From Adineta ricciae (taxonomy: Eukaryota > Rotifera > Eurotatoria > Adinetida > Adinetidae): a stretch of DNA of 64,000 nt. The position numbers and the translations under genes were made by a program. Numbering within the stretch: the first letter of the stretch is position 1; each line of letters starts with the position of its first letter. Under the pieces are notes generated by a model. It worked only from the letters and a program-made list of their open reading frames with translations, was not told the origin of the DNA and did no database searches. Of the stretch, positions 10,054-37,527 are shown piece after piece. The stretch covers positions 20,807 through 84,806 of the forward strand of contig CAJNOJ010000388.1 in the NCBI GenBank assembly GCA_905250025.1. The letters are read 5' to 3'.

Positions 10054-10828
10054 ATGAATCGAATATCGAAACTCGATTTTGCTGGCTTAAAGAATCTTTT
10101 ATCGTCATCTTTGAAATCTTTCTTAATAAATCCATCATCTGATCTAAAACGTGAAGATGAAACGAATGACTCAGAGTTTTATTCCACACCGCGTTTCGTC
10201 CATCATATAGACGATCGAGCTCGAGCCGTTCTCTCTCAGTTCTACACTTATACAATCAAACAATCACCTGAAACGTTCACTTTGGATTTATGTTCATCGT
10301 GGACTTCGCATTTACCGGAAAATTTCGTTGGTAAATTTCATCGAAGTTCGTTGATCGTAATTTGATGTTTTTATTCAAGGTCGAGTTCATGGTCTTGGAA
10401 TGAATGAGTTAGAATTACGAGAAAATCAATCTTTGAACGAAGGTTACACAGTACAAGATTTAAATTCGAATCCTTCGTTATCGAAATTTTCTTCGAATAC
10501 ATTCGATGCGGTGATCTGCTCTGTTTCGATTGATTATCTCATTCATCCAATCGAAATATTTCACGAAATCGGAAGAATTCTAAAGCCGAATGGTCTATTC
10601 ATAACTTCGTTCTCTAATCGTTGTTTTCCAACGAAAGTTATCCGAAGATGGCTTTCTATGAACGAACCTCAACGCGTCGAATGGGTTGCAAATTATTTCC
10701 TTCAAACAAACATTCACTTCGATCCGAAAACAATCAAAGCCTACTCCTTTTTCGATGGAGAATTCCTACCAACTACAGATAAAGAATTTATTGATCCGAT
10801 GTACATTGTGTTAGGAAACAAAAATTAA
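10054..10828 (+). CDS. SAM-dependent methyltransferase, plant/cyanobacterial type
   Basis: Two exons (10054-10330, 10380-10828) around a 49-bp GT-AG intron give 241 residues. ATG 10054 is chosen because the longer frame has only a GTG upstream. The C-terminal 160 residues are a class I methyltransferase: motif I LDLCSSWTSHLP, VHGLGMNELEL as the acidic second strand, FDAVICSVSIDYL, and ILKPNGLFITSFSNRCFPT. The LCSSW and SNRCFPT wording is typical of a family common in cyanobacteria, algae and plants and rare in animals as far as I know, so transfer from a photosynthetic source is inferred. The substrate is unknown. Its stop overlaps by 4 bp the stop of the convergent transporter gene. Confidence 0.8.
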
Positions 10829-13808
10829 ACAATGTCATCAAGTAGAATATGAACAATATGCATAAATTTCCTCCGTTTAGCTTCGTCTAAAGCTGAATTT
10901 CCCCATCGATCCTTGCATGTTCTGCCGTCATCACCACAATGCTGTAAGACTTTAACAACGTTTACGTAACCATTCAATGCCGCCCAATGCATTGGAGTTC
11001 GTCCGTCGTAATCTGCATACGTGTCGTATGCTGACAAGACTCCGCTCATGAGAAGACTTTTGATTAATTCGGCTTCGTTGTTTAAAACTAATGTTGCGAA
11101 ACGGAAAACTTTTTTCCATTTTTTTACCGAATCAACAAAAGTTCTGGTGGATTTCGACGGCGAATCCGAAGATATTCCCGTCGTTGTTGTTGACAACGGT
11201 AACTTCGATTCTTTGCTTTGATATTCTTTTAGATATTCGGCGACTTGATTATGTCCGTAACGATAAGCTTCTTCGATCGGTGTAAATCCCCAACGATCTT
11301 CTCGATTAATCCAATGTAAATCTTGCTTTTTCACTAAGGAATGTTTACATAAGAACTGAATACTCGATAGTTGACCTTCAGCAGCAGCGATATGTGCTGC
11401 AGAGCGAAAATCATAATCGACGCTATCTGCACGAAATTGCGGAAATTGTTTGAGGATATTTATCATTTGTTTCACATTTCCTTCACCCGCAGCTGTGCAA
11501 AACAAAGCTGGTAATAAACATTCTTCTGTAGTTTTCCTCGATTTCCTTTCGACCGCTTCCGTCTTCACTCCAAAATCATCGTCGATATTAATGTCATCAA
11601 GTTCATCATCCTCGACGAAAATATTTTTTGTATTTTTCACTAAACCAGCTCGCCAATGTTGAAGATAAAATGTAATTTGATTATCCGACAATTGCACCGC
11701 ATCGTCTAACGGCGTATGACCGTAATGATCGACAATTGATGTCGATGCATTCCCTTCTTCAACTAAGTATTTGACAATTAAATAATGATGTCCACAAACG
11801 GCTAAATGCAATGCCGTTCGTCCATTATGATCGATTAGATTTGGATTAACTCCGCAAGCGATCAAATATTGTACCGCTTCGAGATTTCCTTCGAACGAAA
11901 AAGCACAGAGGAAAAATACCAGCTCTTTCATCTTCGATATAGGCATTCGGGCGCCTTTTATGTAAAGATAAGGTATGAGGTGGAAATGTCCGTGACAAAA
12001 AGCATCGTACAATGGCGTTCCATCGAAATCGTCGATCAGATTCGTATCCGCATGAAATTTTTCAATTAACATTCGACATAGTTTCATGTTTCCATCACAC
12101 GCAGCTAGATGCAGTGAACTTCGAAGATCGTAGTCGGTTGCGTTGACATCCGCACCTTCGTTCAGTAAAGATTTCAGATTGAACCAATCATTTTGATGAG
12201 TGTAAGAACATAGAAGTATCGGAACGAATTCATTTTCGATGGTCGATAAATCTTCGCCGGGAATGTTTTGATTTCCTCCAACTTTTTGAAGAATTATCGA
12301 TAGGTCATCCAAAAACTGAAAATGCATTTTCACCAAATTCGACAAACGAAATCGTCGTAGGTGATCTTCCGGAATGCTTATCGATCGAAGTCTGATTCCG
12401 ATCAGATATTTACTCGATCCACCTAATAAACACAAAAACCAACAGATAATTATCGCCGGTAACATCAGTGGCAGTTTTCCAAATACAGGAAAGTATTTAA
12501 TCAAACCAACTTGCACAAAAACAGTCATTATTGATCCAAATATCATGTAAAGCCATATGTGAGGTCCATGTAAGACAAAGAACATTCCTCCTAGTATTTG
12601 AAATGTCAATGCAGAGTTCAGACCCCACAGACCTTGACGAATCTCAGCCAGTGACACTTGGAATAAATAAATCGAGGTTATTTGACCCACGATTGTACCG
12701 ATTAAAGCGAGGATTGTTAATCTTAACGAACAAATCGATACACCCAACAGAATAATCAGACCGGTTAGAGCATTATTAATTAGATAAACTTGACTTATGC
12801 TCGAGAAGATTCCGTCGATGAAACTGATCGTTAATGGCCAAAATGAAGTTGTATTTGTGCCATTGGAGATTTCGGTGAGATTTGATATGAGCAAATCAAG
12901 TTCGATAGGAGAGGAATGCAATTTGGTTGCGGAAATTAGCCAGAGGAACGAACACAGATGAGAACTAAATGTAAATGGTGAAATATCGAATCTCACAACG
13001 AATATTTTACAAAGTGCAACGAAGAAGATGGTTGAACAAATGCAAAAAAATACCATTGGTCCGATAAGTTGAAAAAAAGTGTGACCGGGTGAAAAATGTC
13101 TTAGAATCAATGCAGTTAGACATCCATTTGAACCATACAGGCCGCTTTGGATCGATTGCGAATTCAATCCAAGAAAATGGGCGGTTAACGTGGAAATTAT
13201 CGCTCCAAATAAAGCGTAGGAAGCCGAAGATTTTTCATTCATGGTCAACGCTAGAACGATGACCTAAACAATCTTTCTTACGACGAAACGAAGCAGAAAA
13301 TGACTAAACTTACTAAACCAGATAGAGGATTATTCGCGAACATGAGTTGACCGATTCCTCTGAAAACTGAATCGATAAAATTGATGAAAAATTTGAGAAA
13401 TCGAAGGCCGTGAAGGAATTGTTTATGAGTGAAAAGGTAATGGATTTGTGACATAGTACCAAAAAGTGAACGAAGCGTAATTCGATCGTGAGGAGAATCA
13501 AAACGTCGATTTCGATGAATCAACAATGATCGAGAGCGATGAGGTGATGGATGAACAACAACTTCTTCTAACGAATGAAATGTTTCATTTTCCAAATGTT
13601 TTTGTTGTTCAGAAGGAAGCATAGAAGACCACGGTTGGATTTCATGAATGACAAATGATTCAGCTGATTGTTTTCTTGTCAGACGTTTATTTTCGTGTTC
13701 GTTGTCGTCTTCCTCGAACTGGAATCGAACCGACATACTGGTTGATGAACGTGTTCCGCTTGATAACGAGGATTTCATTGGAGAACTACTTATTGTCGAT
13801 TGCTTCAT
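10825..13808 (-). CDS. Urea transporter fused to ankyrin repeats
   Basis: Exon 1 (13808-13314) and exon 2 (13263-10825) joined over a 50-bp intron encode 977 residues. Residues 1-110 are a Ser/Arg-rich cytoplasmic region. Residues about 120-455 are an SLC14/UT-type urea channel with both pseudo-repeat halves: FANNPLSGL and SGLYGSNGCLTAL, then NNALTGLI and RQGLWGLNSALTFQILGGMFF. From about 515 to the end run ankyrin repeats (LLNEGADVNA, GRTALHLAV, YDFRSAAHIAAAEG, YDGRTPMHWAALNGY, DRWGNSALDEA) interrupted by an acidic linker near residue 720. The repeats should be cytoplasmic and may gate the channel or tether it; that is inference. A 5' partial copy lies at 17612-18472. No frameshift or stop breaks this copy. 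Confidence 0.88.
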
Positions 13809-14322
13809 TAACAGATATGGTTAGACGACTTACGTTGATTTCAATGTAGGAGAAAAGAAAACAGATCTATCAATGATTGACAAGGTTTCAATGAATGAAA
13901 ATATGCAATTATTTTTGACAGCTATGAAATAATAAATGCGCGAAATATCATTAGCCCTTTCTTCTCTTTCGCATATTTAATCGAATTTCTACACGTGTTC
14001 TGTTCTATATCGTATTGAATAAGTGTAAATAAAATATCTATCGATGGACTTGTTTCTAAGGTTTGAATAAACTCAAATCGGTATCGAGGTCATGTAAATT
14101 TTACACGTAAAGCTGACAGAACATATTCTTTTCTACTTGGTCTAATTGAAGATGTGTGTACAGCTAAGATTCGCGTACTTGTATAAAGATGTCGCACAAG
14201 CAATGAGAGAATCCAGCAATATTTACACTGATGATTATGCTTATCACGATAAAAATTACTCTCATTTATTAATACGTATTAGTAGTGTCTTGTTTTACTA
14301 GGATTTCAATGTTTAATAATGA
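13809..14322. other. Intergenic, shared by both copies of duplication 1
   Basis: Upstream region of the urea transporter and downstream region of the Cys-rich gene; conserved with 18473-18991 except for small indels. No element recognised. Confidence 0.5.
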
Positions 14323-14797
14323 TTAAAATCCAATAAAGCCATCGTAACAGCAATTATAGGTTGTATGATTTTTCCATTGCTTGCACCAAGCATTCGCCAT
14401 GTAGGATGATGTGAGACCAGCACGAGAACACGTGCGCCCGTTATCGACTTCATTGGCCGTTCCATTTCGCCATGGACATGCTTCACCCGAAAGGCAAAAA
14501 CGAGCTCGATTGCAAACGCAATAGATTTCGAGCGAATCTCCTACACTGTCAACACCACCATCGTCCATACATTCATCCGGAATCACATAGATTCGTCCGG
14601 TCCCTTTGCACGACAATTTTGACGTCGAGGCTGGATCACACGCACTCGCAGTATCATTACGGCATGTGACACATTCTGTGGACCATATACTGGCGATGCT
14701 AATAGTACAATGAAACTGATTTCCGAAGTAATTTCAATAAATAGTTCTACCTGATAATAACAACAGCAATAAGAAGACGAGGATTTGTGTATTGCAT
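14323..14797 (-). CDS. Secreted Cys-rich protein, 137 aa
   Basis: Exon 1 (14797-14751) encodes a signal peptide (MQYTNPRLLIAVVIIS) and is joined over a 61-bp GT-AG intron (14690-14750) to exon 2 (14689-14323), which reads IWSTECVTCRNDTASACDPA and continues to ...CCYDGFIGF. The mature part of about 120 residues holds about 14 Cys, including CVCN and a terminal NCCYDG, suggesting a disulfide-rich extracellular domain. No known family was recognised. It is encoded just downstream of, and on the same strand as, the membrane serine protease in both copies of the duplication. The second copy (18992-19466) is broken. Confidence 0.72.
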
Positions 14798-15094
14798 TGC
14801 TTGTTTGATTATTTGTATGTGTATGTGACGTAGCGTGTATAAGCTGAGTGTTTATATACATATGCAAATTCAGGAAGTCGAAACAGAAATCATGGGCTAT
14901 TGACAATTACTTCATTTTTTATGACTATTGACCAGTTAGAATATATAAGTAATCATGATTTATCTTCAGTATGTTTTTACCTTACCGCCTATTGTATGTG
15001 ATACAAAAAAAAGAGGCGTCGCTGGCTTCATGATATTTCTACCTGTTTCGCGTTACATGACTATATTTTATGATAGCACTCGAATGAATATCCA

Positions 15095-16256
15095 TCAATC
15101 AAGCAATTTATTCGAATAAACAATCTGATGAATCCATGGAAGATAATAAGCAACACGAGTATAAACATTCGGTCTGCTATTATTCGTTTTACAGTTAAAT
15201 CTTTCAACGTACGATGCAATTCCTGAGACCATCCATCGATTTTGTGCATCTTGGGATAAAAGTGGGCCTCCACTATCTCCACTACACGCTGATACACCTG
15301 TTATATTATTACCAACACAAATCTGTCTTCGTTCATCGACGCCTTCCGTTGACCACCATTGATTGCACCCAGCAATCACTTGGGTAGATGCTTGTTTAAG
15401 CACAGGTGCATATCTTCCTCGGAATTCTGCAGAACCCCATCCAGCTATAATGACCGTATCGTTCGCTAGTGGTTGTTGATCAGATAAACATGCTAATTGA
15501 ATAAATCTATTAAGGTAGAAGGGAGTATTTAATTGAAGAATTGCAATATCACCGAGTGGTGATAATTGAACAAATGTTGGATGAATGAAGACTTTTTCCA
15601 CACGGCGAGTTTGACGAACGTTTCTCTCGAGCGTTGATGAAGTATTGTGTAAACCGGCAATTATTCGAATAAATGATCCATTGGTTGCAGTTATACAATG
15701 CGCGGCGGTGAGAACATATCGAGGATGAATTAATGTTCCACCACAGATGCTCGATGTACAATTTGAATTGTTACATGGAGGAGTTTCGATATAGAAAACA
15801 ACCTTATAATATTGACAGAACGAGATTTTAATTACAGGAAAGAAAAATTCAGCAGATACTTTACCCAGGGCCAAGAATTCGGTATAGCTTCCATTCCTCC
15901 GTAAATACGTTGGAATGGTACGTACGGTAGAATCTCTTGTTTTCCACATGAAACAGCATTCGGCATTGTTGCATCTATTGTTGTTGTTTCTGTTCAAATG
16001 AAATAAAACAAATAAGATGGCAACGAGAATTCGATTATTGAATACCGATTTGATATGTTGATTTGTATAAAGATGCGAATGTAATAACTAAGGCGATGAC
16101 GATGATGCTTAAGCCAAATGAGAATAGAATAAAGAAAACGAGCAAGCACTTAATCGGAAAAGAAGCTTTCCAGTTTGCTGGTTGAGTTGATTTTGTTCTT
16201 TGAATCTGATTATTCAAAAACGAAAATGAACGTGAAATATTCGATGACTGATCCAT
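15095..16256 (-). CDS. Type II transmembrane serine protease (S1, chymotrypsin fold)
   Basis: Three exons (16256-16046, 15989-15865, 15802-15095) with introns of 56 and 62 bp give 347 residues. A short cytoplasmic N-terminus precedes a membrane helix at about residues 36-62 (CLLVFFILFSFGLSIIVIAL). The catalytic domain begins at the activation site FQR|IYGGMEAIPNSWPW. The triad is His in LTAAHC, Asp in LGDIAIL and Ser in GDSGGPL. The position equivalent to trypsin 189 is Ser (SACSGDSGG), so chymotrypsin-like rather than trypsin-like cleavage is expected. The topology places the protease outside the cell. Stop at 15095; ATG 16256 is preferred over an in-frame TTG at 16259. A full intact second copy is at 19742-20898. 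Confidence 0.9.
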
Positions 16257-16259
16257 CAA

Positions 16260-16881
16260 TAGTTTTCGAAATTGTGATGATTTTGCTCGATTAAATTGTG
16301 CAAATGATCACATACGCGGGGATTAAAAAACCGTTGAGGAACGATAAATGTCGCTTTAAACTTTAAAGAGAATAGCATCAGTCGTGTTTTTATTCGAAAT
16401 TTAACAAAGAATGTCATTATAAAGAACATACTACAGACAGAGGCGTATTCAATTTCGTAAATAATCTATCAACACCATTCACTGTACACAATACAGTTAA
16501 CATCAATGTCATACGAGCAACGTACCAACTACAGAATATCAAGAAGTTCTCCGCTTCATAGCATTAGATTATGATTTTCGTATTGATACCACTAAGGTCG
16601 GTAATCAAAAAGAATATTTGTTTGAAGAAAATATTCTTCCAAATTTACTCATACGTTTCCCACGAAAAGACGATTCATCCCTTCATCTATTATGCTGATG
16701 CAACGCACCAACTTCGTACGACAAATTATCTAAAATAAAAATAAGCGGATGAGACTACCAAGTTCTTCACCGTCATGCCCAACTTGTACGTTAGTTCTAA
16801 AAAACTAGTTTACAAAAGCAGTTTATTAGCCCATACAATAGTGAGAGTCTATCCGATGATATTTCCATTCGTAAATGTGCT
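16260..16881. other. Duplicated non-coding stretch with decayed frame
   Basis: Matches 20902-21569. The right copy keeps a 73-codon plus-strand frame (21053-21274) that in this copy is shifted by an extra T near 16414. The protein resembles nothing I recognise, so this is recorded as degenerate sequence, not a gene. Confidence 0.35.
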
Positions 16882-17121
16882 TCACGTGAACCAATCCAAA
16901 GTAAAGCATTTCGCACTTGTAAATGTTCGGTTTGGTTTGATGCTGCTTTTACAACGTCTCTTGTTCTCCACTTTCGGGCGCGGTATCACAAGTTTCAGAA
17001 CTATTACCAGAACATCCACCACACCAATCAACGTCGTCGCGATAGTAATCACATCGTTTTTCACCTCAGTCACATAATTACATTCTTTCGGTTGACATTC
17101 ATCATAGTAACGATCATACAT
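16882..17121 (-). pseudogene. 3' fragment of a Cys-rich single-pass membrane family
   Basis: Encodes YYDECQPKECNYVTEV followed by a membrane helix (ITIATTLIGVVDVLVIVLKLVI) and a basic tail. The C-x-P-x-x-C-x-Y plus C-terminal helix layout belongs to a family I associate with large bdelloid expansions; the longer copy is at 21570-22782. A TAG lies immediately before the YDR segment in both copies, so the gene was already dead before duplication. Upstream exons are absent here because the segment ends at the minisatellite. Confidence 0.55.
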
Positions 17122-17129
17122 CTATGTTT

Positions 17130-17610
17130 GAGAATACATCCTATTCCGCAATGTTGCACATTTGGGAATCAGTTCCGCACACGGAATCAGTTCCCACGAT
17201 TCCGGAATTCACCCGAAGCAATTCCGGAATCCATACACACAATTACACGGAATTCCTACCAATTCCGGAATTACACCCACTCCCTTCACCCTCACATATC
17301 ATCTCCCCTATACATGACCGAATTCCGTTTACGGAATTCCGGAATTCAGTCATACCCGGAATCGCTAGGAATTCCGTGGAATTCCTACCAATTCCTACCG
17401 ATTCCGGAATCGCACCGAATTCCGGAATTCCGTAAACGGAATTGAATCGTTCCAGGACGATGATAGCAAGTCCTACTTAAGCAAGCATGCAATTCCGGAA
17501 TCGCTAGGAATTCCATGGAATTCCGCGGAATTCCTACCAATTCCGGAATTACACCCACCCCCTTCACCCTCACATATCATCTCCCCTATACACCACCCAA
17601 TTCCGTTTAC
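17130..17610. repeat. GGAATTCC-rich minisatellite
   Basis: The stretch is built from the palindromes GGAATTCC and CCGGAATT with short spacers. A segment of about 75 bp containing acacccac(t/c)cccttcac and tcacatatcatctccccta occurs twice, from about 17255 and 17533, 278 bp apart. The second copy runs directly into the assembly gap at 17611, so the array is probably longer in the genome. It marks the junction between the two copies of duplication 1. Confidence 0.85.
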
Positions 17611-17611: not shown

Positions 17612-18472
17612 ACGAACACAGATGAGAACTAAATGTAAATGGTGAAATATCGAATCTCACAACGAATATTTTACAAAGTGCAACGAAGAAGATGGTTGAA
17701 CAAATGCAAAAAAATACCATTGGTCCGATAAGATGAAAAAAAGTGTGACCGGGTGAAAAATGTCTTATAATCAATGCAGTTAAACATCCATTTGGGCCAT
17801 ACAGGCCGCTTTGGATCGATTGCGAATTCAATCCAAGAAAATGGGCGGTTAACGTGGAAATTATCGTTCCAAAGAAAGCGTAGGAAGCCGAAGATTTTTC
17901 ATTCATGGTTAACGCTAGAACGATGATCTAAACAATCTTTCTTACGACGAAACGAAGCAGAAAGTGACTAAACTTACCAAACCAGATAGTGGATTATTCG
18001 CGAACATGAGTTGACCGATTCCTCTGAAAACTGAATCGATAAAATTGATAAAAAATTTGAGAAATCGAAGACCGCGAAGGAATTGTTTATGAGTGAAAAG
18101 ATAATGGATTTGTGACATAGTACCAAAAAGTGAACGAAGCGTAATTCGATCGTGAGGAGAATCAAAACGACGATTTCGATGAATCAAAAATGATCGAGAA
18201 CGACGAGGTGATGGATGAACAACAATTTCATCTAACGGATGAAATGTTTCATTTTCCGACTGTTTTTGTTGTTCAGAAGGAAGCATAGAAGACCACGGTT
18301 GGATTTCATGAATGACAAATGATTCAGCTGATTGTTTTCTTGTCAGACGTTTATTTTCATGTTCGTTGTCGTCTTCCTCAAACTGGAATCGAACCGACAT
18401 GCTTGTTGATGAACGTGTTCCGCTTGACAACGAGGATTTCATTGGAGAACTACTTATTGTCGGTTGTTTCAT
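17612..18472 (-). CDS. Urea transporter-ankyrin copy 2, 5' part cut by gap
   Basis: Exon 1 (18472-17978, 165 codons) and the start of exon 2 (17927-17612) are joined by a 50-bp intron with GT-AG ends. About 270 residues are visible: the Ser-rich N-terminus and the first helices of the urea channel, including SGLYGPNGCLTAL. The frame is undamaged up to the gap; the second half of the channel and the ankyrin repeats are not in the assembly here. Compared with the first copy, changes such as S4P, H71Q, L72S and S79P lie mostly in the N-terminal region. It may be an allele of the first copy placed in tandem by the assembler. Confidence 0.8.
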
Positions 18473-18991
18473 TAACGAATATGGTTAGACGACTTACGTT
18501 GATTTCAATGTAGGAGAAAAGAAAACAGATCTATCAATGATTGACAAGGTTTCGATGAATCAAAATATGCAATTATTTTTGACAGCTATGAAATAATAAA
18601 TGCGCGAAATATCATTAGCCCTTTCTTCTCTTTCGTATATTTAATCGAATTTCTACACGTGTTCTGTTATATCGTATTGAATACGTGTAAATAAAATATT
18701 TATCGATGGACTTGTGTCTATAGTTTGAATAAACTCAAATCGGGATCGAGGTCATGTAAATTTTACGTGTAAAACTGACAGAAGAAATGAACATATTCTT
18801 TTCTATTCGATCTAATTGAAGATGTGTGTACAGCTAAGATTCGTACTTGTATAAAGATGTCGCACAAGCAATGATAGAATCCAGCAACATTTACACCGAT
18901 GGTTGCTTATCATGATAAAAAATTACTCTCGTTTATTAATACGTATTAGTACAGTGTCTTGTTTTACTAGGATGTCAATGTTCAATAATGA
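18473..18991. other. Intergenic, duplicate of 13809-14322
   Basis: Same content as the left copy with small indels; nothing further recognised. Confidence 0.5.
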
Positions 18992-19466
18992 TTAAAATCC
19001 AATAAAGCCATCATAACAGCAATTATAGGCTGTATGATTATTCCATTGCTTGCACCAAGCATTCGCCATGTAGGATGATGTGAGACCAGCGCGAGAACAC
19101 GTGCGCCCGTTATCGACTGCATTTGCCGTTCCATTTCGCCATGGACATGCTTCATCCGAAAGGCAAAAACGAGCTTGATTGCAAACGCAATAGATTTCGA
19201 GCGAATCTCCTGCACTGTCAACACCACCATCGTCCATACATTCATCTGGAATCACATAGATTCGTCCGGTTCCTTTGCACGACAATTTTGACGTCGAGGC
19301 TGGATCACACGCACTCGCAGTATCACTACTACATGTGATACATTCTGTTGATCATATACCAGCGATGCTAATAGTATAATGAAACTGATTTCCGAAGTAA
19401 TTTCAATAAATAGTTCTACCTGATAATAACAACAGCAATAAGAAGATGAAGATTTGTGCATTGCAT
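18992..19466 (-). pseudogene. Secreted Cys-rich protein copy 2, splice acceptor lost
   Basis: The body of exon 2 (from 19285 to 18992) is still open and nearly identical to the first copy, ending CCYDGFIGF. However, the intron 3' end reads ctGG|tata instead of ccAG|tata, and the following Trp codon TGG is changed to TGA, so both the acceptor and the frame into exon 2 are lost. The next AG downstream leads to a stop within a few codons. The signal-peptide exon (ATG at 19466) remains. Confidence 0.7.
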
Positions 19467-19741
19467 TGCTTGTTTGATTATTTGTATGTGTATGTGATGT
19501 AGCGTGTACATATGCAAATCCAGGAAGTCAAAACAGAAATCATGGAGTCTTGACAATGACTTTTTTCTATGACTATCGACCAATCAGAATGTAGAAGTAA
19601 TCGTGATTTATTTTCAGTATGTTTTTACCTTATCGCCCATTGTATGTGATACAAATAATTGGGCGTCGCACTTTTCATGATATTTCCACCGGTTTCGCGT
19701 TATATGACTATATTTTATGATAGCACTCGAATGAATATTCA

Positions 19742-20898
19742 TCAATCAAGCGATTTATTCGAATAAGCAATCTGATGAATCCATGGAAGATAATAAGCAA
19801 CACGAGTATAAACATTGGGTCTACTATTATTCGTTTTACAATTAAATCTTTCAACGTATGACGCAATCCCTGAGACAATCCACCGGTTTTGTGCATCCCT
19901 GGATAAGATTGGACCTCCACTATCTCCACTACATGCTGATACACCTGTTATATTATTGGCAACACAAATTTGTCTTCGTTCATCAACGCCTTCCGCTGAC
20001 CACCATTGATTGCACCCAGCAATCACTTGGGTAAATGCTTGTTTAAGCACAGGTGCATATCTTCCTCGGAATTCTGCAGAACCCCATCCAGCTATAATGA
20101 CCGTATCGTTCCCTAGTGGTTGTTGATCAGATAAACATGCTAATTGAATAAATCTGTTAAGGTAGAAGGGAGCATTTAATTGAAGAATTGCAATATCACC
20201 GAGTAGCGATAATTGAACAAATGTTGGATGAATGAAGACTTTTTCCACACGGCGAGTTTGACGAACGTTTCTCTCGAGGGTTGATGAAGTATTGTGTAAA
20301 CCGGCAATTATTCGAATAAATGATCCATTGGTTGCAGTTATACAATGCGCGGCGGTGAGAACATATCGAGGATGAATTAACGTTCCACCGCAGATGCTCG
20401 ATGTACAATTTGAACTGCTACATGGAGGAGTTTCGATATAGAAAACAACCTTATAATATTAAGACAACGAGATTTTTTGTCACAGAAAAAAAAACAAGAA
20501 ATTTTACCCAAGGCCAAGAATTCGGTACAGCTTCAATTCCTCCGTAAATACGTTGAAATGGTACGTACGGTAGAATCTCTTGTTTTCCACATGAAGCAGC
20601 ATTCGGCACTGTTGCACCTATTGTTGTCGTTTCTGTTCAAATGAAAGCAAAAAATAACATAACAATGAGAATTCGATTATTGATTACCGATTTGATATGT
20701 TGGTTTGTATAAAGATGCGAATGTAATAACTAAGGCGATGACGATGATGCTTAAGCCAAATGAGAATAGAATAAAGAAAACGAGCAAACATTTGATCGGA
20801 AAAGAAGCTTTCCAGTTTGCTGGTGGAGTTGATTTTGTTCTTTGAATCTGATTATTCAAAAACGAAAATGAACGTGAAATATTCGATGACTGATCCAT
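19742..20898 (-). CDS. Type II transmembrane serine protease, copy 2
   Basis: Exons 20898-20688, 20632-20508 and 20449-19742, with introns of 55 and 58 bp, give 347 residues, the same length as the first copy. All key features are kept: membrane helix, FQR|IYGGIEAVPNSWPW activation site, LTAAHC, GDIAIL and GDSGGPI, and Ser at the position equivalent to 189. Differences from the first copy are scattered conservative substitutions, so both are likely functional or allelic. It lies upstream of the broken Cys-rich copy on the same strand. Confidence 0.88.
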
Positions 20899-20901
20899 CA
20901 A

Positions 20902-21569
20902 TAGTTTTCAAAATTGTGATGATTTTGCTCGATTAAATTGTGCAAATGATCACATACGCGAGGATTAAAAAACCGTTGAAGAACGATAAATGTTACTTTA
21001 AACTTTAAAGAGAATAGTATCGGTCATGTTTTTATTCGAAATTTAACAAAGAATGTCATATAAAGAACATACTATAGACAGAGGCATATTCGATTTCTTA
21101 AATAATCGATCGACGCCATTTATTATACATAATACAGTTAACATCAATATTACGAACAACGTACCAACTACAGAATATCAAGAAGTTTCCCGCTTCATAG
21201 CATTAGATTATGATTTTCGTATTGATACAACTAAGGTCTGTAATCGAACAGAATATTTGTTTGAAGAAATCTGAACATTATTATTAAAGCCTTATACAGG
21301 AATATCTACGAAAATATTCTTTCAAATTTACTCAAACGTTTCCCACGAAAAGGCTATTCATCCCTTCATCTGTTATGCTGATGAAACGCACCAACTTCGT
21401 ACGACAAATTATCTAAAATAAAAATAAGCGGATGAGACTACCAAGTTCTTCACCGTCACACCCAACTTGTACGTTAGTTCTAAAAAACTAGTTTACAAAA
21501 GCAGTTTATTCAACAATACAATAGTAAGAATCTGTCTGATGATATTTCCATTCAAATGTTCTTCATGCT
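20902..21569. other. Duplicated stretch with an unassigned 73-codon frame
   Basis: Right-hand counterpart of 16260-16881. The plus-strand frame at 21053-21274 is open (Asn- and Thr-rich middle) but is broken in the other copy and has no recognised relative. Confidence 0.3.
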
Positions 21570-22782
21570 TCACGTGCACCAATCCAAAGTAAAGCATTTC
21601 GCACTTGTAAATGTTCGGTTTGGTTTGATGCTGCTTTTACAACGTCTCTTGTTCTTCACTTTCGGGCGCGGTATCACAAGTTTCAGCACTGTTATCAGAA
21701 CATCCACCACACCAATCAACGTCGTCGCGATAGTAATCACATCGTTTTTCACCTCAGTCACATAATTATATTCTTTCGGTCGACATTCATCATAATAACG
21801 ATCATACATCTATGTTTCAATCATCAGATTGTTCATGATCTGTTGAATGTTCGTGTCTGGTGCATAGTTGTTTGATGCCGATGAATCAAGAGATATGACA
21901 TCGAGCCATAACGATGTACTGAGAGATATGTATAAAAACCTGGTACATCGAAGCGGCTTTGATTACTATTGTAATTGAAAACGGACGACTGTTTAGTACA
22001 TCTTGGAGAGCTTTGACATGAACAATCAGAGTAGACAGCCGTACTTGCACACACGGAGTCGTTACCGTTAGCAATCTCTATAACAAAATTAGTTTGTAAC
22101 GCAGACAAAAGACCATTGCTTCGAATGATTTCACGTATTGTCGAAAGGAATAATAGAAAATTGTTTGTTGTTGATGTTCTGAATTGATTATAGTGCTTGA
22201 CATTGAGATTCAAACACTTGCTTGATTATGACAGATTCACTGGTATACTGGTTGGAATAGGAGCTGAGCGACACTGTGTGGAAAGTGTTTCTTTGCTGAA
22301 TTCACAAAACATTCTCATTGCCTGAAATGCTTCCACACCTATCCAACGAAAATCATCTGCCCGGTAAACTCCAACAAACGAACTCAAGTATTGATTCCAA
22401 ACCGGACTGATGAAGTCACTTTGACATACTTGATGTAATGTGTAGTCGATGTGCAGAAGCTGCTCGTATTTGATTGATATTGTTGTGCATGGACATGTGA
22501 GAGATGATGAGTATGTGTCGAAAGATGACCAGTGAACGGTGATGGGTTTTATGATGGTGACGAGAGAAGGAGAATGGTTAGTGAGAGAAGAAAGATGAGA
22601 ATGAATAGTCGTGTCGAGATGCGTTGGGTGTGAAGTTGATGGGAATCAGTTGTTGGTGGAACAGAGAGAAAGAAATTGAGATTGTGTAATTGACGCGCGA
22701 CTTTTTGCCGAAACTGCCCAACTGGTACGAGAACTGTGAACACTAGAGAGAAACATAAGGACGAAAGGATATGTGCACTCAA
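21570..22782 (-). pseudogene. Cys-rich single-pass membrane family member, broken
   Basis: Parts in order on the minus strand: an N-terminal cytoplasmic segment and helix (RLFILIFLLSLTILLLSS) ending near 22550; after a frameshift, an extracellular domain with TCPCTTISIKYEQLLHIDY and HQVCQSDFISPVW to a stop near 22230; then FLSTIREIIRSNGLLSALQT and the Cys cluster DCSCQSSPRC with FDVPGFYT; and, after TAG near 21812, YYDECRPK with the C-terminal membrane helix. At least one frameshift and two stops separate them. The family has an N-terminal helix, a large Cys-rich ectodomain and a C-terminal helix; its function is unknown to me. It is the longer version of the fragment at 16882-17121. Confidence 0.6.
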
Positions 22783-24670: not shown

Positions 24671-26371
24671 ATGTCCCTGCAAAATCAATCATCCAGCATA
24701 CCTCTGATATCAAATGATGATGAAATGCATATCAATCCACTTGGACAAAATAAAGATTATCAAAGTATTCAAAACTCGTCTTCGTCATCACTCAATTCGA
24801 ATTCCAATCGATTAAACAAATTTCTAAACAGTCTCGATTACATTCATGCAGAACAACGTGGCATCCAGCGTGTTCTACCTTCAGAACGTACTGATTCATC
24901 GGTTCTAAACACGTCTATCATTTGGGTATGATAAGAAGATATATTTCTCGTTTTTAATGCTTCGCTTCTCTTTGAAGATCGGAATGAATATTATTATTCC
25001 ATGCTTTGCTGTTGGTGCAATTGGACCAGCTGTTTATAAATTGGATCTCTATGAGTCATTCTTAACAATTCTCATTGCCACCAGTTGTTCAATTCTCCCT
25101 ACTGCAATTATTTCTTGTTTTGGTCCACCGTCAGGTTTGCGGACGATGGTTATCATCCGTTACAGCTGGGGTTACTATGGCGCATCGGTCATATCTATTC
25201 TATCGGTGATCTCGGCTCTAGGATGGTCAACTGTGAATGTTATAACTGGTGCTCAAGTACTACGTGTTGTTTTCGATTATGAAATCTCGTTAACTGTTGG
25301 AATTCTCCTTATAGCCATTATTGTTATAATCGTTTCATTTGCTGGTTACGAATGGATTCATATTTATGAAAAATACGCATGGATTCCAGTATTTATTGCA
25401 TATTGTTTTGTCGCTATCCTTAGTGTTAACGACATTCAACATTCACAAGAAGTAGGGTCGAGATTGATCGACATTATCAATTGAATTTCTCCGTTTTCTA
25501 GGTGTACTTAAACGCAACAAGAACAATGTACAGGAGAAGTACATGGAATACCAATGGTATGTTAAGTTTCAGCGCGTCATGTACCGCTGCCGCTACGAGT
25601 TGGTCGGTCTTAGCTGCCGATTATAATACGTATTTATCAGAAGATGCAAATCAAATGAAAATTTTTCTTTTCACTTATTTCGGAAACTTCTTTGCGATAA
25701 TTCCCTTAGAACTTCTCGGCACAGCCGTTTATACAGGCACTTATACAAATGAACAATGGGCTTATGCATACCAAGTTGATAATGCTGGCGGATTATTAGG
25801 TGCATCTCTTGCATCTCTGGGTGTTTTTGCTAAAATTCTTCTCATTTTATTTTCATTCTCAGCAGTTGCATGTACTATTCCAAACATTTATTCTTTCTCT
25901 TTGTCTGCTCAAGCTATCTCATCAATATTTCAACGAATTCCTCGAATGTACTATGCAATAGTTGGCACTCTGATTTATACGATATTAGCAATTGTGGCCG
26001 CAAAGAATTTTAATCAAGTATTGGTATCGTTCATGGATGTTGTATCAGGCTTCGCTTCAATTTATATCGTTGTGCTGCTGGAAGAACATTTCATTTTCCG
26101 ACGTTGTTCGTATAAGAACTATGATTTCAATTCATGGAACGATCGAAAAGCTTTACCTATTAGTTTCGCTGCAATATTTGCCGGTGCAGTAGGAGTGATT
26201 GGATTTGTCCTCGGTATGTCGCAAGATTGGTATCAAGGTCCTATTTCAAAGGTGTTCTCAAATAATGGAGCTGCACAAAGTCCAAATTTGGGATTTCTAT
26301 GTGCATTGATTTTCACAGCTATTACTTTTCCTCTATTTCGATGCATTGAGTTACATTATGTAAAACGATAA
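24671..26371 (+). CDS. NCS1-type nucleobase permease, block A copy
   Basis: Three exons (24671-24925, 24978-25451, 25502-26371) with phase-0 GT-AG introns of 52 and 50 bp give 532 residues. After a Ser/Asn-rich cytoplasmic N-terminus the NCS1 purine-cytosine permease pattern begins: EQRGIQRVLPSERTD, then NMxIxxF-like GMNIIIPCFAVGAIGP, CFGPPSGLRTMVIIRYSWGY and GWSTVNVITGAQVL, followed by LAADYNTYLSEDAN in the middle and about 12 membrane helices. Family members import cytosine, purines or related bases with protons or sodium. The wording is closest to fungal permeases as I remember them, so transfer from a fungus is a plausible inference. AATAAA follows the stop directly. Confidence 0.85.
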
Positions 26372-28110: not shown

Positions 28111-28775
28111 TACACAAAATCATTTATATCGTCTGCGACATCGAACTTAAAATTACTCATACTTTTCGCGTTTCAATGAAATGACACACGAAAATATTTT
28201 TCTGATCAATACGCAGTGGTGTGTAGCTTAGCTGTTTTCTCTCATCTGGTGCAAAATATAAAGCAGAAGATAGACATGACATGGATGAATAATGTATTCA
28301 TCTAAACGAAAACGAAACGTCAGAGAGCGAAGGTATACGTTTGTATGGACGAGCATGTAAAAGTGCTTTGTCATATTGGGGAAAAGGTAAACACGAATTG
28401 TTTATTCTGACGAAGCACACCTTTTTATTTTACGTTTAACATGGATGTATATTCAAGTAGGAGTAAAATGTTTGATTTTAACCGAAAAAAACCGGACTTG
28501 TCTTTTTCTTTTGAATATATGTGTTATGATGAGTAATAAAAATAGTTGACCTGATGGGAGCCGTTCGTTAACGAACTTTGCTCATTCTTATGACGGAACT
28601 AGATGTGAGTAATTTTTAATTAACATTGCGTACATCATATCTGAGTAACTCAATAATTAGAGCGTCACCTACACACTGCGGTGAGTATTTATATTTCGCC
28701 TTGCCATAATGTTGATTTCATTATCAAGTGATCAAAAGTGTCTTTTTTCCTACCGTCTACTTTTTTAATCCAGAT
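28111..28775. other. Upstream region of ovothiol synthase gene A
   Basis: Conserved in block B. The pyrimidine stretch ending TTTTTTAATCCAG just before the ATG resembles a splice acceptor, so a 5' UTR intron is possible. Confidence 0.4.
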
Positions 28776-31010
28776 ATGTCTGCTGTGGCGTCCAGTAATT
28801 TTATTCTTCATTCTCCTTCGTTCTGGACGGGCAAATCGCCTGTTTATGGTATTTGTCCTGGTGTGGAACCAGATGGAACTATAAAATCGCTACCACAAGT
28901 GAAAACCAATGCTACTCGAAGAGAATTACTCGATTATTTTGACAACACATGGACATTAACAGAAGTACTATTCGACGGGTTAGCTAATGAAGAAGCTTAT
29001 TACCGTCGGCCGTACCATAAGTTACGTCACCCGATGATATTCTATTATGGCCATCCAGCTGTACTGTATATGAATAAGTTACGTGTAGCTGGTCTACTGG
29101 TTAATGGAATAAGTAGTGAATTCGAACGATTGTTCGAAACTGGTGTTGATGAAATGCGATGGGATGATTTGTATGAAGGTCATGATGACGTTTGGCCATC
29201 AATAGATGAAATACACCAATACCGCCGCGAAGCTTATCAAATTATTCGTAAATTAATTGAAACACATCCATCGTTTGATGAACAGCATATGCCAATTACC
29301 ATTGATAAACCAACGTGGGCGTTACTAATGGGTTTTGAACACGAACGTATACATCTGGAAACATCATCGGTATTGATTAGAGAATTACCGATTGAATTCG
29401 TACGTGCAAGTAAGATCTGGCCAAGTCTATTGTTGGAGACGAAAGATCAACCATCGAAAAAAAACTTGATGATTAATTTAAATAAATCTGAAGTTAAGTT
29501 AGGTAAACCGATTGCTTGGCCGACTTTTGGATGGGATAATGAATATGGCGACGAAAAACGAGTTGTTCAATCTTTCAGCGCAAGCAGTATGCTGATAAGT
29601 AACAGAGAATTTTATCTATTTGTTACCGGGGGCGGTTATATACAAGAACGATATTGGTCTACTGACGGTTGGACGTGGCGCTCTTTTCGTAATGTTAAAG
29701 CACCATCATTCTGGGTACCCATTGGTCCATCTGGGCTGCATCAATATAAATTACGTACGCTTTTCGAAATTGTTGAAATGCAATGGAATGCGCCGGTTTG
29801 TGTTAATTTTCATGAAGCAAAAGCGTACTGTGCTTGGCGCACGGAGCAAGAGAAGAGTGTGATGCCTTATCGCTTATTGACAGAAAGTGAACATAATCTC
29901 ATACGTGATGGCAAAGATTATCAATGGAACAATAATTTACGTCATGGTGGAGAAGTAGCAGTTACGGCGAGTCAAGTTAATGATAACGGATTCTACGATG
30001 TCTTTGGAAATGTTTGGCAATGGTGTGAAGATCACTTTCATCCTCTGGATGGCAGTCAACCACATCCATATTACGATGACTTTAGCGTACCATGTTATGA
30101 TGGAGAACATCACATGATTTTAGGTGGTTCATTTGTAAGTACTGGTGATGAAGCAAGTGTTTGGGCAAGATTCCATTTTCGTCCACATTTCATGCAACAT
30201 GCCGGTTTTCGTATCGCACGTAGCGATGATATATACACTTGTAATGCTCGATTTATTAAAAACTCAACGACGAATACTTACGAAACACAACAAATGGTCG
30301 ATATGTACGTTCTGATGCATTGGGGCGAAAAGCAGCAACGTTTTGATCCTCTGATCTCTGCAAAAATTATCTTTCCAAAAGTGCCTGACTTACCTATTGC
30401 TTGTGCTGAATTCGTCAATCGCTTTGCCACTCATACTGATCGTGCACTGGATTTAGGCTGTGCTGTTGGTCGCACAACTTTTGAATTGGCGATTACTTTT
30501 AACGAAGTTATTGGAATCGATTACAGTCAGAACTTTATTTCCGTTGCTCGACATTTACAACAGTATGGAAAATTCGAATACAATCGAAAGGATCAAGGAA
30601 TGCAGCAGACAACCTTAACCGCTGTCGTGAACCCTTCTATCGATCGAGATCGAATACAGTTCGAAGTTGGTGATGCATGTTCCCTACGTTCTGATCTGAA
30701 AGATTTCGATGCAGTCGTATTGGCAAACGTCTTATGTCGTCTCCCGAAACCATCGACCTGTTTGAAACGTATGCAAGGTAATGGTGGATTAGTGAAGAAA
30801 GGAGGTATCTTAGTGATGACAACACCATTCAGCTGGCTGCCTCAATACACACCGCAAAGTGAATGGATAAATGGTGTGAAAGAAATTCAAAATATTCTCA
30901 CTGAATTCGATTTGATACATGAAGAAGAAATCCCATTTATGATACGAGAACATCGTCGAAAATTTGAATATATTATCACATTAGGTACTGTTTGGAAACG
31001 AAGATTATAA
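28776..31010 (+). CDS. ovoA: Ovothiol synthase OvoA (5-histidylcysteine sulfoxide synthase / methyltransferase), block A
   Basis: A single 744-codon exon. Residues about 50-200 form the DinB-like iron-binding part, with YYGHPA (H93) and the HxxxHxE motif HERIHLE (H189, H193, E195). Residues about 240-495 are the FGE-sulfatase-like domain (FGWDNEYGDE, VTASQVNDNGFYDVFGNVWQW, LGGSFVSTGDEAS, RPHFMQHAGFR). Residues about 540-744 are a SAM methyltransferase (ALDLGCAVGRTTFEL, VIGIDYS, DAVVLANVLCRLP). This fused layout is that of OvoA, which joins cysteine to histidine C5 as a sulfoxide; the methyltransferase later forms the N1-methyl of ovothiol A. The ATG at 28776 matches the start in block B. There is no intron, unlike all its neighbours. 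Confidence 0.92.
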   Translation: MSAVASSNFILHSPSFWTGKSPVYGICPGVEPDGTIKSLPQVKTNATRRELLDYFDNTWTLTEVLFDGLANEEAYYRRPYHKLRHPMIFYYGHPAVLYMNKLRVAGLLVNGISSEFERLFETGVDEMRWDDLYEGHDDVWPSIDEIHQYRREAYQIIRKLIETHPSFDEQHMPITIDKPTWALLMGFEHERIHLETSSVLIRELPIEFVRASKIWPSLLLETKDQPSKKNLMINLNKSEVKLGKPIAWPTFGWDNEYGDEKRVVQSFSASSMLISNREFYLFVTGGGYIQERYWSTDGWTWRSFRNVKAPSFWVPIGPSGLHQYKLRTLFEIVEMQWNAPVCVNFHEAKAYCAWRTEQEKSVMPYRLLTESEHNLIRDGKDYQWNNNLRHGGEVAVTASQVNDNGFYDVFGNVWQWCEDHFHPLDGSQPHPYYDDFSVPCYDGEHHMILGGSFVSTGDEASVWARFHFRPHFMQHAGFRIARSDDIYTCNARFIKNSTTNTYETQQMVDMYVLMHWGEKQQRFDPLISAKIIFPKVPDLPIACAEFVNRFATHTDRALDLGCAVGRTTFELAITFNEVIGIDYSQNFISVARHLQQYGKFEYNRKDQGMQQTTLTAVVNPSIDRDRIQFEVGDACSLRSDLKDFDAVVLANVLCRLPKPSTCLKRMQGNGGLVKKGGILVMTTPFSWLPQYTPQSEWINGVKEIQNILTEFDLIHEEEIPFMIREHRRKFEYIITLGTVWKRRL

Positions 31011-32011
31011 CATTTATTTCATAACCAAAGAACTATTGATCGTATTGAATTCAAATATAGCTAGAAATGCAAATAAACCATCGTCATCAAGAGTGATATA
31101 TAACATGCTACTGTTTTAAAATGACGTAATATTGATCATTTTTTTGTGCTGTGACTCACAGAATGAAATGACTGACGAAATTTTCACGCGATTGTTTCAT
31201 CCTAGAGTAACGGAATCGATATACTTATACTGCATTGCCATGTCGTTCTAAACAAGTATTAGAGTCGTCATACAGGTAGTCTCATATCTTATATTTGCAT
31301 TTTGGTCTCCGAGCTATAGCGTATCAAAGAAAGATGCTCAGTAATTGAGTTTTGGAGTATGAATTTACTGGGAATCAGCGATTGACACCGACCTCACTTT
31401 ATTCAATGTATAATTGAGATGTCTGATGTTATCTGTCTAAAGTAATCAAAGTCAAAGAAGTATTGGGTTTCTTTATGACACTATTTGGCGATTTGGTAGG
31501 TCAATGTAAATTCTATCTAATCTGAAACCACCGTTTTTTTTTCAACAATAGCGGCATAATCACGATGGAGTCCTTAATGCAGCGATTCAACTGTTCGACA
31601 GCCATGATACGAAAGGATAAATCTGTTTACTACTTAGCTTTTAAACGGACTAACTTTTATCTATCTAAAGAGAAGAGGAAAAATCATGCAACAGTTTCTG
31701 GGTTCACATAATCTCCGTGACTTTATAATTGTGACTAATATCCAATTTTAAGTTATGAATTAGTATCGTTGTGCACCACGTGACTTTTGCATTGTAATAT
31801 GATAGTTGTCTGAAGTAGAATTTTTTTTTCCTTTTAGAATAAGTTTAATTAAAAATATTTTTACTCAACTAGTTTCATCGGTTTCACATGTGACGTACTC
31901 TTTTATGCAGAAAGAGCATTTGCGTTTCCGTCGATTTTCATTTAGCAAATTAGATTTGAGAAGTGTAGCAGAAGAGAAAATCAGCATTGAAATATTTTGC
32001 AAACTACGTAG
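31011..32011. other. Intergenic, conserved between blocks
   Basis: No gene recognised; aligns to 49489-50397 with several deletions in block B. AATAAA-type signals lie near 31073. Confidence 0.5.
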
Positions 32012-33478
32012 ATGCGGCAAATACTCGTTTTCTTCTCAATATTTTCTGCTGTAAATTGTATTTTAATCGGCAAAATAGAAAATTATCGGAATATTGGAAA
32101 TGTTTCCCAAATACTACTGAATAAAACTCTAAATGAATGTATCTGCCAGATGCTTCAATCCAACAATTTCATATTATCATTGAATTATTACTTGAACAAT
32201 CAATCCTGCCATTTATTTCATTCAAATATAAACACAACTACAATTGATTTTGATCCCAATTCATCTCTCATATTTACTAATCAATCAACAATAGCAATAG
32301 TACTCAGTAAGTGTCAAATAGTAATTTTGACGATTAGTAAACTTTTTTGAATGTTTCACTTCGTTATTATACGATACAGGAACAACATCCTTATCAACAT
32401 CAACATCAACAACAACAACAGCCGTGCCAGGTCAGTAATAAAGCTTGATTTGAAGCTATGCAGATAATATCATGTGTTCTATTAAGTTTGGATATCTTCT
32501 GGAAGTATGAATAACGCAAGGAATGGTCACACAGCATCGATCCTATTCGATGGATCTGTCTTAGTTGTTGGTGGCTCGAATTCCAATGGTTATCTTAATA
32601 CTTCGGAGTTATACAATTCGTCGACAGGCATTTGGACTTTGACGAGACAGTTCAATGTTGGACGAGAAGATCATACAGCGTCGGTACTATCCAATGGACA
32701 AGTACTTATTGTCGGCGGATATAATCTGAGTGGTGCTATGGTGAATGTTAATTTGTATGATCCATTGGCGAATATTTGGACAACTGGTAAACGTTTGAAC
32801 ATTGCACGAGAAGATCATCGATCAGTTACATTGGTTAATGGAAAAGTCTTAGCTATCGGTGGACGCAATACTGCTGCGTTGAGTTCTTCTGAATTATATG
32901 ATCCATTAACAGACACTTGGACACTTACAGGCAGTTTGAATAGCGCACGAGAAGATCACACAGCATCAGTTTTAAACAACGGAAAAGTTTTAATTGCTGG
33001 TGGGATGGATGTGAATGTTCTTAAGAGTGCAGAGATATACGATCCATCGACAAACATATGGACATTGACAGGAAATCTCAAGATGGCACGAAGTCACTAT
33101 ACCGCAACGATCTTGTTTGACGGAAAAGTGTTAGTCGCTGGTGGATTTGGAGCTAGTAGTGTTTTGAATAGTGCCGAATTATATGATCCATCAACAGGTG
33201 TGTGGACATTAACAGGAAATATGGTCAATGCGCGGTTCGGTCACTCAGCATGTGTCTTAGCAAATGGAAATGTTCTAGTGGTTGGTGGATATGATGGTAC
33301 TGTTTATTTAAAAGCTGCTGAATTATACAATCGATCATCGGGTACTTGGACAAGCATAGTAGATATGAACTTTGCTCGACTTTTTTTCACACAGTCTGTT
33401 TTACTGAACGGAAAATTACTTGTTACTGGAGGTCAGAGTCAGAAAGGCATTATCTTAGATAGTACTGAACTGTATTGA
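32012..33478 (+). CDS. Secreted Kelch-repeat protein, block A
   Basis: Three exons (32012-32306, 32380-32430, 32487-33478) with GT-AG phase-1 introns give 445 residues. Exon 1 encodes a signal peptide (MRQILVFFSIFSAVNC) and a domain with NECICQML; exon 2 is a 17-residue Ser/Thr linker (SLSTSTSTTTTAVP); exon 3 encodes about seven Kelch units of about 47 residues, each with a VLVVGG-type strand, an AELYDPSTG-type turn and WTLTGN. They should form one beta-propeller outside the cell. The repeat wording resembles bacterial Kelch proteins; the ligand is unknown. It is convergent with the dioxygenase gene, 85 bp between stops. Confidence 0.85.
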
Positions 33479-33563
33479 AGAAAAGTGATATTTTAATTGA
33501 AAAGTTTATTCTAATAATAAAACAGCCTATGTGATTACGATCTTCGTTTGCTTCGTTAATGAA

Positions 33564-34571: not shown

Positions 34572-35166
34572 TTGTGTCGATCGAGTTCTATAACTTTCGA
34601 TTTTATAGATAAAAAACAAAAGAGCAAAGGACGCCTATTCGAATGCTGTTGTTTCTTATCTTCACATCAAGTAAGATAACGTAATTTAACAAAAAAACAA
34701 AACAGTTGCGAACTTGGTACTAGATTTCTTTTCTTAGTGTAACAAAAAGATTGTCTGGAAACAAAAAATCACATTTATTTCAAATTGTGTTAATCAATTA
34801 ATTCAGTATTGACATGTAAGCAAGTAGAGAATTTATGTTTGTCAGGCTGTTTCCTGCAGCAGACAGAAACGGAGGATACTGGTTCAGATTCTTTAACTGG
34901 TCGTATTTACCGACTGCCTTCGATCATGTTGGTAGATGCATATCCAGAGACAACTAGAAGATCATCGCGCAAATGATTCAAATAATCATGTATTTGTCTT
35001 CCATTGCAGTGTCAAAATCCTATTAAGTGGATTACTACTATTAAAAACTACTTTAACTGGCAAGTTATCATAATATTTATTTGGGTATATTAAAATACCA
35101 GAATGAAGAAAACTTGATATTCTTTACAAGTTTTCGTGAGAGCTTATTTGACTAATATAAGAATTT
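34572..35166. other. Intergenic
   Basis: Upstream region of the dioxygenase, conserved in block B up to about 35022. No element recognised. Confidence 0.5.
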
Positions 35167-35317
35167 TATATTCGACTGTTAGCATGGTCAATTGCATATA
35201 CATCGAATTGATAATCAACAACAACACAAGTAGGTTGATTAAGTAGAGTAGATGAGTTTTCAACTACACCTGTTGTACCAATTGTTGTTATTACACTAGA
35301 TTGTCCAGCATCTGTCG
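35167..35317 (-). pseudogene. NHL-repeat fragment
   Basis: About 48 codons read ...LNQPTCVVVDYQFDVYAIDHANSRI then stop, which fits one NHL propeller blade (LxxPxxVxVDxxxxxYVxDxxNxRI). No adjoining blades follow in frame. This fragment lies in the part deleted from block B. Confidence 0.45.
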
Positions 35318-35330
35318 AAGCAGTTTATGA

Positions 35331-37498: not shown

Positions 37499-37527
37499 NN
37501 NNNNNNNNNNNNNNNNNNNNNNNNNNN
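37499..37527. other. Assembly gap (29 N)
   Basis: Gap within or just upstream of the NHL-repeat gene. Confidence 0.98.

Follow-up and report, generated by a model that had tools for sequence, protein, structure and literature searches.

The window analyzed here is a stretch of 64,000 nucleotides from the bdelloid rotifer Adineta ricciae (contig CAJNOJ010000388.1, positions 20,807 to 84,806), with a guanine plus cytosine content of 35.7%. On its minus strand, at 13808-10825, lies a gene of two exons whose spliced translation gives a protein of 977 residues with 0 internal stops, and in which a urea transporter (UT, SLC14-type) channel domain is followed by a long C-terminal tail of ankyrin repeats. 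We refer to it as the UT-ankyrin gene or window gene. Its features are listed below, with the evidence for each, including an alignment with the paralogue C70 and the ratio of nonsynonymous to synonymous substitution rates (dN/dS).

13314..13808, minus strand: exon 1, residues 1-165, comprising some 140 N-terminal residues and the beginning of the UT domain (spliced translation, Pfam)
13264..13313, minus strand: intron of 50 bp, GT-AG (GTAAGT...TTTAG), splitting the first UT signature (NNPLSGL/VIVL)
10825..13263, minus strand: exon 2, residues 166-977 and the stop, an 812-codon open frame with the remainder of the UT domain, the bridge and the complete ankyrin tail
12424..13376, minus strand: UT (SLC14-type) channel domain, residues 145-445, interrupted by the intron (PF03253, PDB sequence and fold matches)
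12241..12423, minus strand: bridge from membrane to ankyrin, residues 446-506, 61 residues (C70 alignment, dN/dS)
11947..12240, minus strand: ankyrin module 1, residues 507-604, read as 3 repeats (module alignment)
11647..11937, minus strand: ankyrin module 2, residues 608-704 (module alignment)
11527..11646, minus strand: acidic, poorly conserved linker, residues 705-744 (10 D/E in residues 700-735)
11218..11526, minus strand: ankyrin module 3, residues 745-847, glutaminase-like (module alignment, 5u0i match)
10828..11127, minus strand: ankyrin module 4, residues 878-977 (module alignment)

Both parts of the protein are identified above threshold. PF03253 (UT) matches residues 145-445 with an E-value of 2.7e-55 and 188.1 bits, above the curated cut-off of 25, and the match covers profile positions 1-290 of 292. 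When residues 1-489 were compared with the PDB using phmmer, 12 distinct sequences were found at E <= 0.001, every one of them named as a urea transporter (4.7e-54 to 2.6e-25). Similarly, a model of exon 2, with the exon 1 part outside it, matched UT structures in Foldseek (E 3.7e-10; template-modelling (TM) score by target 0.76 for 3me1_B). The two UT halves each carry the GxQxxF..NN..(S/T)G and GL.G.N..L motifs, including Q154, F157 and Q323 for the former and L214 and L384 for the latter. In the tail, Pfam reports Ank_2 over four stretches (E 3.1e-43, 146.7 bits), Ank (105.4 bits) and Ank_4 (97.2 bits). The junction between the UT and ankyrin parts is located deep within exon 2, inside the single 812-codon frame. 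The spliced frame and the Pfam and PDB matches thus bear out what an earlier note on this DNA had claimed, namely a single two-exon polypeptide with both channel halves and ankyrin repeats without a break. The ankyrin module that the note put at about 460 residues is present and measures 471 (507-977); its "full urea channel" is correct for the domain, which is complete, but four near-constant positions of the pore region are changed and urea conduction is uncertain.

To place this gene within its family, the genome (130 Mb, 1033 contigs) was searched for UT exon by exon, which yielded five places: the window gene itself, a second copy present on its contig in two pieces, and two deep paralogues, C70 and C181, that are approximately 40% identical to the window gene. 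All five (5/5) belong to the fused family, and no ankyrin-free urea transporter was found by this exon-by-exon search. Ankyrin repeats follow the UT part in the window gene, in C70 and in the 3' piece of the second copy, and the 5' piece is stopped by a gap before reaching them. C70 is a single open frame of 970 codons (UT 1.3e-78, Ank_2 1.1e-37). In C181 (L029:4173-5276), the UT frame is intact and its pore canonical; a TGA lies directly behind the UT domain (codon 368) and a TAG about 100 codons further on (codon 469), with readable ankyrin continuing in the same frame. C181 could be a pseudogene, a gene that now makes a tail-less channel, or an assembly error. Tail pieces without UT occur in C96, in C16 and at C181:144562-144816, with stops within the C96 and C16 pieces. 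Frames resembling MmgE/PrpD and isocitrate/methylisocitrate lyase, recognized by eye, adjoin the C181 urea channel at L029:5450-7754.

The identity between the window gene and C70 is 127/303 (42%) in the UT domain, 24/57 (42%) in the bridge over 446-505, and 87/196, 43/114 and 45/102 (44, 38 and 44%) in the ankyrin blocks, compared with 3/29 (10%) in the acidic linker over 706-734. The UT and ankyrin parts have diverged in step, and because UT, bridge and ankyrin diverged together, the alignment indicates that the fusion predates these paralogues and is older than the split of the three.

Constraint along the protein was assessed from single pairwise dN/dS estimates between the window gene and its second copy, which are based on few changes. 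The overall value is 0.163 (754 codons), with 0.262 over the 5' piece of the second copy (270 codons), 0.185 in UT residues 222-445 (222 codons) and 0.17 in the ankyrin tail (472 codons), a value like that of the channel. The lowest of the measured stretches is the bridge, residues 446-505, with 0.064 (60 codons; 8 synonymous and 2 amino-acid changes). Within the tail, residues 506-705 reach 0.082 and residues 735-977 reach 0.272. On these estimates, channel, bridge and tail are all under purifying selection, the last part of the tail least. A gene-merging artefact was considered and is ruled out: one exon crosses the junction and three loci agree. Purifying selection on the junction, its place within one frame and its presence in both deep paralogues likewise show that the fusion is no merging error.

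The pore of the window paralogue was examined in an alignment of the rotifer proteins, dvUT, both human UT-A halves and 80 bacterial channels, each read in its matching frame, using filter positions from a section of PMC4357013. The numbers of Q24, V25, F27 and F243 were at least in part counted from the listed sites, F243 being the symmetry partner of F80 and outside that paper's list; the dvUT row is the F80A construct (3m6e), hence the A at its F80 site. The four changed positions are the following.

13344..13346, minus strand: codon of L155, at the dvUT V25 / UT-A2 V68 site; Val in 80/80 bacterial rows
13129..13131, minus strand: codon of S210, at the dvUT F80 / UT-A2 Y123 site; Tyr in 47 and Phe in 33 of 80, Pro in the second copy
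12619..12621, minus strand: codon of L380, four before dvUT L247 (F243 by count); Phe in 68, Tyr in 11 and a gap in 1 of 80
12463..12465, minus strand: codon of M432, at the dvUT T294 / UT-B T334 / UT-A2 T338 site; Thr in 79 and a gap in 1 of 80

These positions (V25 to L155, F80 to S210, F243 to L380, T294 to M432) are kept in bacteria, human UT-A, C70 and C181. The window gene retains the Q24, F27, L84, T130, V188, L247 and L293 sites and, like vertebrate channels, has Q at the E187 site; L326 corresponds to the F190 site, where Leu is most frequent in bacteria, and was not counted as a change. Across seven sites taken to represent a canonical pore (V25, F80, L84, T130, F243, L247, T294), the window gene reads L,S,L,T,L,L,M, with 4/7 changed; with aromatic equivalents accepted, the same seven are kept in C70 (V,Y,L,T,Y,L,T) and C181 (V,Y,L,T,F,L,T). 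Its UT branch is long, at 1.4 versus 0.26 and 0.41. Judged from these residues and the branch length, the window gene is the odd member of the family, one for which the name "urea channel" exceeds the evidence, and its urea permeation is probably altered or reduced.

A stronger interpretation is that the window paralogue no longer conducts urea and is a pore-dead or differently selective UT (for water, ammonia or another small solute), whose ankyrin tail serves as a scaffold or urea sensor. In human UT-A, both paralogues and 79-80 of the 80 bacterial rows, the four positions concerned hold a constant or aromatic residue; two of the changes remove an aromatic residue and one a filter threonine. 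The UT branch is accelerated, yet the domain is under purifying selection over residues 222-445, and the second copy shares L155, L380 and M432 where readable, with P instead of S at 210. However, the pore glutamines Q154 and Q323, the leucines L214 and L384 and the filter threonine T263 are kept, and dvUT with F80 replaced by alanine was stable enough for a structure (3m6e, from its title). We consider a complete loss of urea conduction possible, though on the unlikely side.

By our reading, the tail consists of four three-repeat modules of about 100 residues each, or 12 repeats. Eight ankyrin cores with paired spacing were identified by pattern, and a cap repeat was read before each pair. 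Ten of these units, four each from the window gene and C70 and two from C181 (the first two C181 units being left out), could be aligned in register; they are 95-103 residues long, with three invariant and four nearly invariant columns. A pattern, DYDxRxxxH...DRWGxTPLDEA, was read from this alignment, and it is glutaminase-like. Module 3 matches 5u0i, the ankyrin domain of kidney glutaminase, in one stretch at 3.6e-10; among the best 60 of 218 matches to this module, 5u0i is the only row with a stretch that passes the threshold alone, and its whole-chain E-value ranks 33rd. With a profile of all modules, glutaminase was not singled out and was not among the best 60 of 496. The fold search with the exon 2 model returned six chains of 5u0k, the liver glutaminase ankyrin domain (TM by target 0.70-0.77, about 100 columns, E 0.006-0.008). 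The tail may thus be described as glutaminase-like in pattern, which need not mean common descent.

Such a tail might also be a by-product without a role of its own, joined on by chance and retained since it does no damage. Many further ankyrin frames in the genome match it and represent raw material for fusions, the C181 tail contains two stops, and residues 735-977 are the least constrained between the copies. Set against this, the constraint on the tail as a whole resembles that on the channel, and C70 keeps all four modules in order, so that we regard a merely tolerated tail as improbable.

The origin of the channel was addressed with a midpoint-rooted tree of 41 rows, including 35 of the 80 bacterial loci and one vertebrate protein, human UT-A. 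The rotifer UTs and both human UT-A halves are split from the 35 bacterial rows and dvUT with support of 100/99. Because of the midpoint rooting and the single vertebrate protein, we describe the UT domain as animal-like and claim nothing further. In bacteria, 171 relatives were found and 80 frames kept, and none of the 80 matched the tail when it was used as a phmmer query at E 10; these frames, one of which (L052) ends at a contig edge and the longest of which reach 588 residues (L082), were judged by the tail match alone. When bacteria were first scanned with the C70 channel, none of 28 pattern matches was confirmed as a relative, the patterns probably being too specific. In viral contigs, the patterns used gave 56 matches, of which none contained a UT relative. 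A bacterial or viral origin was rejected on these two grounds, the unmatched tail and the lack of a UT relative among the viral pattern matches. Bdelloids hold many foreign genes, and horizontal acquisition of the fused gene from bacteria or viruses would be in keeping with this; the grouping of the UT domain with human UT-A and away from bacteria, these bacterial and viral results and the presence of an intron nevertheless make it very improbable. Scarcely credible, too, is the idea that channel and ankyrin are two genes or transcripts that appear fused only in genomic DNA: the stop codon straight after the channel in C181 makes a channel-only product possible in the same genome, but in C70 as well as in the window gene and its second copy the junction lies within one stop-free exon, and the bridge combines the lowest dN/dS with conservation in C70.

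The window contains part of the second copy.

17612..18472, minus strand: 5' part of the second copy, residues 1-270, cut by a single-N gap at 17611 (gap-edge overlap, self-alignment, translation)

The intron donor and acceptor of the window gene have identical sites in this piece. The earlier note had reported the 5' half of the gene again at these positions; this repetition is genuine, but what stands there looks like half of another copy and not like a separate truncated gene. Self-alignment of the contig shows window positions 12948-17129 repeated at 17612-21817 with 92% identity, and, in contig coordinates (C388), 11985-17604 aligning with 28378-33896 and 38418-42623 with 33754-37935 at 92-93%. 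The 3' part, at C388:15339-17604 and upstream of the window, abuts a single N; such single Ns are located at C388:17605 and C388:38417. At the gap edges, the left piece ends and the right piece begins with the same 143 bases (143/143 identical). The window copy differs from this stretch at 1 base, which makes identity by itself a weak test; the stronger point for a misjoin is that the overlap sits exactly at both gap edges. Most simply, these sequences would be read as one second copy in two halves, between which the contig of the window copy was scaffolded. An independent truncated gene at 17612 was rejected in its favor, given the self-alignment and the gap-edge overlap. The synonymous divergence (dS) between the window gene and the second copy is 0.156, and the second copy is probably allelic; for the published A. 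ricciae genome, sections of PMC5916493 give a synonymous divergence (KS) of 0.14 between homologous copies and a guanine plus cytosine content of 35.6%, and report linked homologous blocks and suspected scaffolding errors. Shortly before the gap at 17611, the region 17140-17600 was seen by eye to be rich in repeated GGAATTCC- and TTCCGGAAT-like words.

Comparison with known systems clarifies what is unusual in this architecture. The window protein is like members of UT/SLC14 (human UT-A, UT-B, zebrafish UT, dvUT) in both halves, the paired pore glutamines, the paired leucines and one of the two filter threonines; it differs from them in its added ankyrin tail and in the changed V25, F80, F243 and T294 sites. 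UT members are not known to carry anything beyond the channel domain, which occurs singly or, in UT-A1, in tandem. The tandem form of UT-A1 is described in a portion of PMC10541013. In agreement with the earlier note, for which known urea transporters are essentially channel domains, no ankyrin fusion was found in the 80 bacterial frames or in the titles and opening abstract lines of the papers listed on UT and ankyrin, rotifer UT and invertebrate SLC14; unremarked eukaryote database entries may well exist. Placement of a UT by another protein, not by fusion, is described in an excerpt of PMC12407830, in which UT-B in red cells is corralled by stomatin.

The plant Shaker-type K+ channels GORK, SKOR and AKT1 likewise consist of a membrane channel, a bridge and then cytosolic ankyrin repeats, and ankyrin block 1 of the window protein aligns to all three over approximately 180 residues (GORK 2.8e-28). 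UT, for its part, conducts solutes passively, and no gate is known for it. The plant channels differ in their unrelated voltage-gated K+ pore and in the cyclic-nucleotide-binding domain between pore and ankyrin, as outlined in part of PMC12318183. The C-terminal ankyrin domain of glutaminase (KGA/GLS, GLS2) shares the three-repeat module of about 100 residues, present once on a soluble enzyme, whereas the window protein has four in tandem on a membrane channel. TRP channels (TRPA1, NOMPC) are also animal membrane channels with a large ankyrin region, and they are matched by the tail; their ankyrin region is N-terminal and their cation-channel pore belongs to another family.

These likenesses allow a putative mechanism to be proposed. 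UT termini are cytosolic. According to PMC10541013, the known UTs form trimers in which each subunit has 10 membrane helices and 2 pore helices. If the window protein is trimeric like other UTs and its C-terminus cytosolic, three 12-repeat ankyrin arms would hang in the cytosol below the channel, joined to it via the conserved 61-residue bridge. By binding a partner, the arms might, through this bridge, fix the channel at a membrane site and/or change its activity. In plant K+ channels, the ankyrin domain engages kinases and phosphatases, and the state of the channel is influenced by the bridge (PMC12318183); in glutaminases ankyrin repeats appear to lower enzyme activity (in a part of PMC10912226). 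By analogy with these proteins, the tail may tether or regulate the channel, and either docking or restraint would fit. Because the pore has diverged and urea permeation is probably altered, a scaffold or regulated role may weigh more in the window copy than in C70 with its canonical pore.

Taken as a whole, we consider it fairly probable that the window gene is, by descent, a member of the animal UT/SLC14 family that gained a C-terminal ankyrin tail, with cytosolic arms that bind a partner and influence membrane placement and/or activity, and with an altered pore. Several points weigh against this. The topology and the trimer are borrowed from known UTs. AlphaFold gave a predicted local distance difference test (pLDDT) score of 40.8 on the tail alone and a mean of 61.9 on exon 2, with most of the channel part folded well and the ankyrin tail poorly. 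C181 shows that tail loss is possible. Since the last part of the tail is less constrained than the first block, not all of it need matter equally, and the long UT branch of the window gene could also mean relaxed constraint.

The surrounding sequence includes other frames. The UT-ankyrin gene and a convergent frame on the plus strand (10361-10828) share the terminal TTAA at 10825-10828, from which each draws its stop; that frame is methyltransferase-like (Methyltransf_11, 1.4e-07), and the convergent arrangement is also present in the second copy. A frame of 764 residues with DinB_2, FGE-sulfatase and methyltransferase domains (Pfam on the first copy) occurs twice, at 28716-31010 and 47203-49488, 18.5 kb apart; this domain build is presumably that of the ovothiol synthase OvoA, and the pair is probably two homologous copies scaffolded in tandem. 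Two neighboring NCS1-type permease frames (Transp_cyt_pur: cytosine/purine/allantoin; Pfam on the first copy) are similarly present twice, at 24909-26371 and 43879-45341. They are perhaps unusual for an animal and possibly acquired horizontally.

With respect to nitrogen metabolism, the genome holds two urease-alpha matches, both within one gene at L123 (C42:287001-297000), in which urease gamma, beta and alpha parts were seen by eye in order, on one strand and over several exons. Arginase-family matches number 10 and ammonium-transporter matches 55. The nickel accessory protein UreD and glutaminase were not found in the genome, which is weak evidence of absence in a genome so rich in introns. 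Given the urease sequence, urea may be a nitrogen source in this rotifer.

UTs are largely regarded as passive and gradient-driven, with control exerted through expression, phosphorylation and trafficking. A bolder proposal, which we advance only tentatively and think unlikely as it stands, is that urea channels in this lineage are constitutively ankyrin-armed, with C70 gated or anchored by a partner and the window paralogue acting as a urea sensor (transceptor) or as a channel for another solute that signals via its 12-repeat arms. If true, C70 would be the first UT to carry its own regulatory assembly in the cytosol. With a conserved UT-ankyrin family, the membrane channels that carry ankyrin repeats would come to include an unrelated pore type, one for a solute instead of an ion, and there would be a natural test case for the gating or placement of a urea channel by a cytosolic arm. 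For such comparisons, the same genome offers three natural variants, namely a canonical pore with a tail (C70), an altered pore with a tail (the window gene) and a canonical pore followed by a stop (C181).

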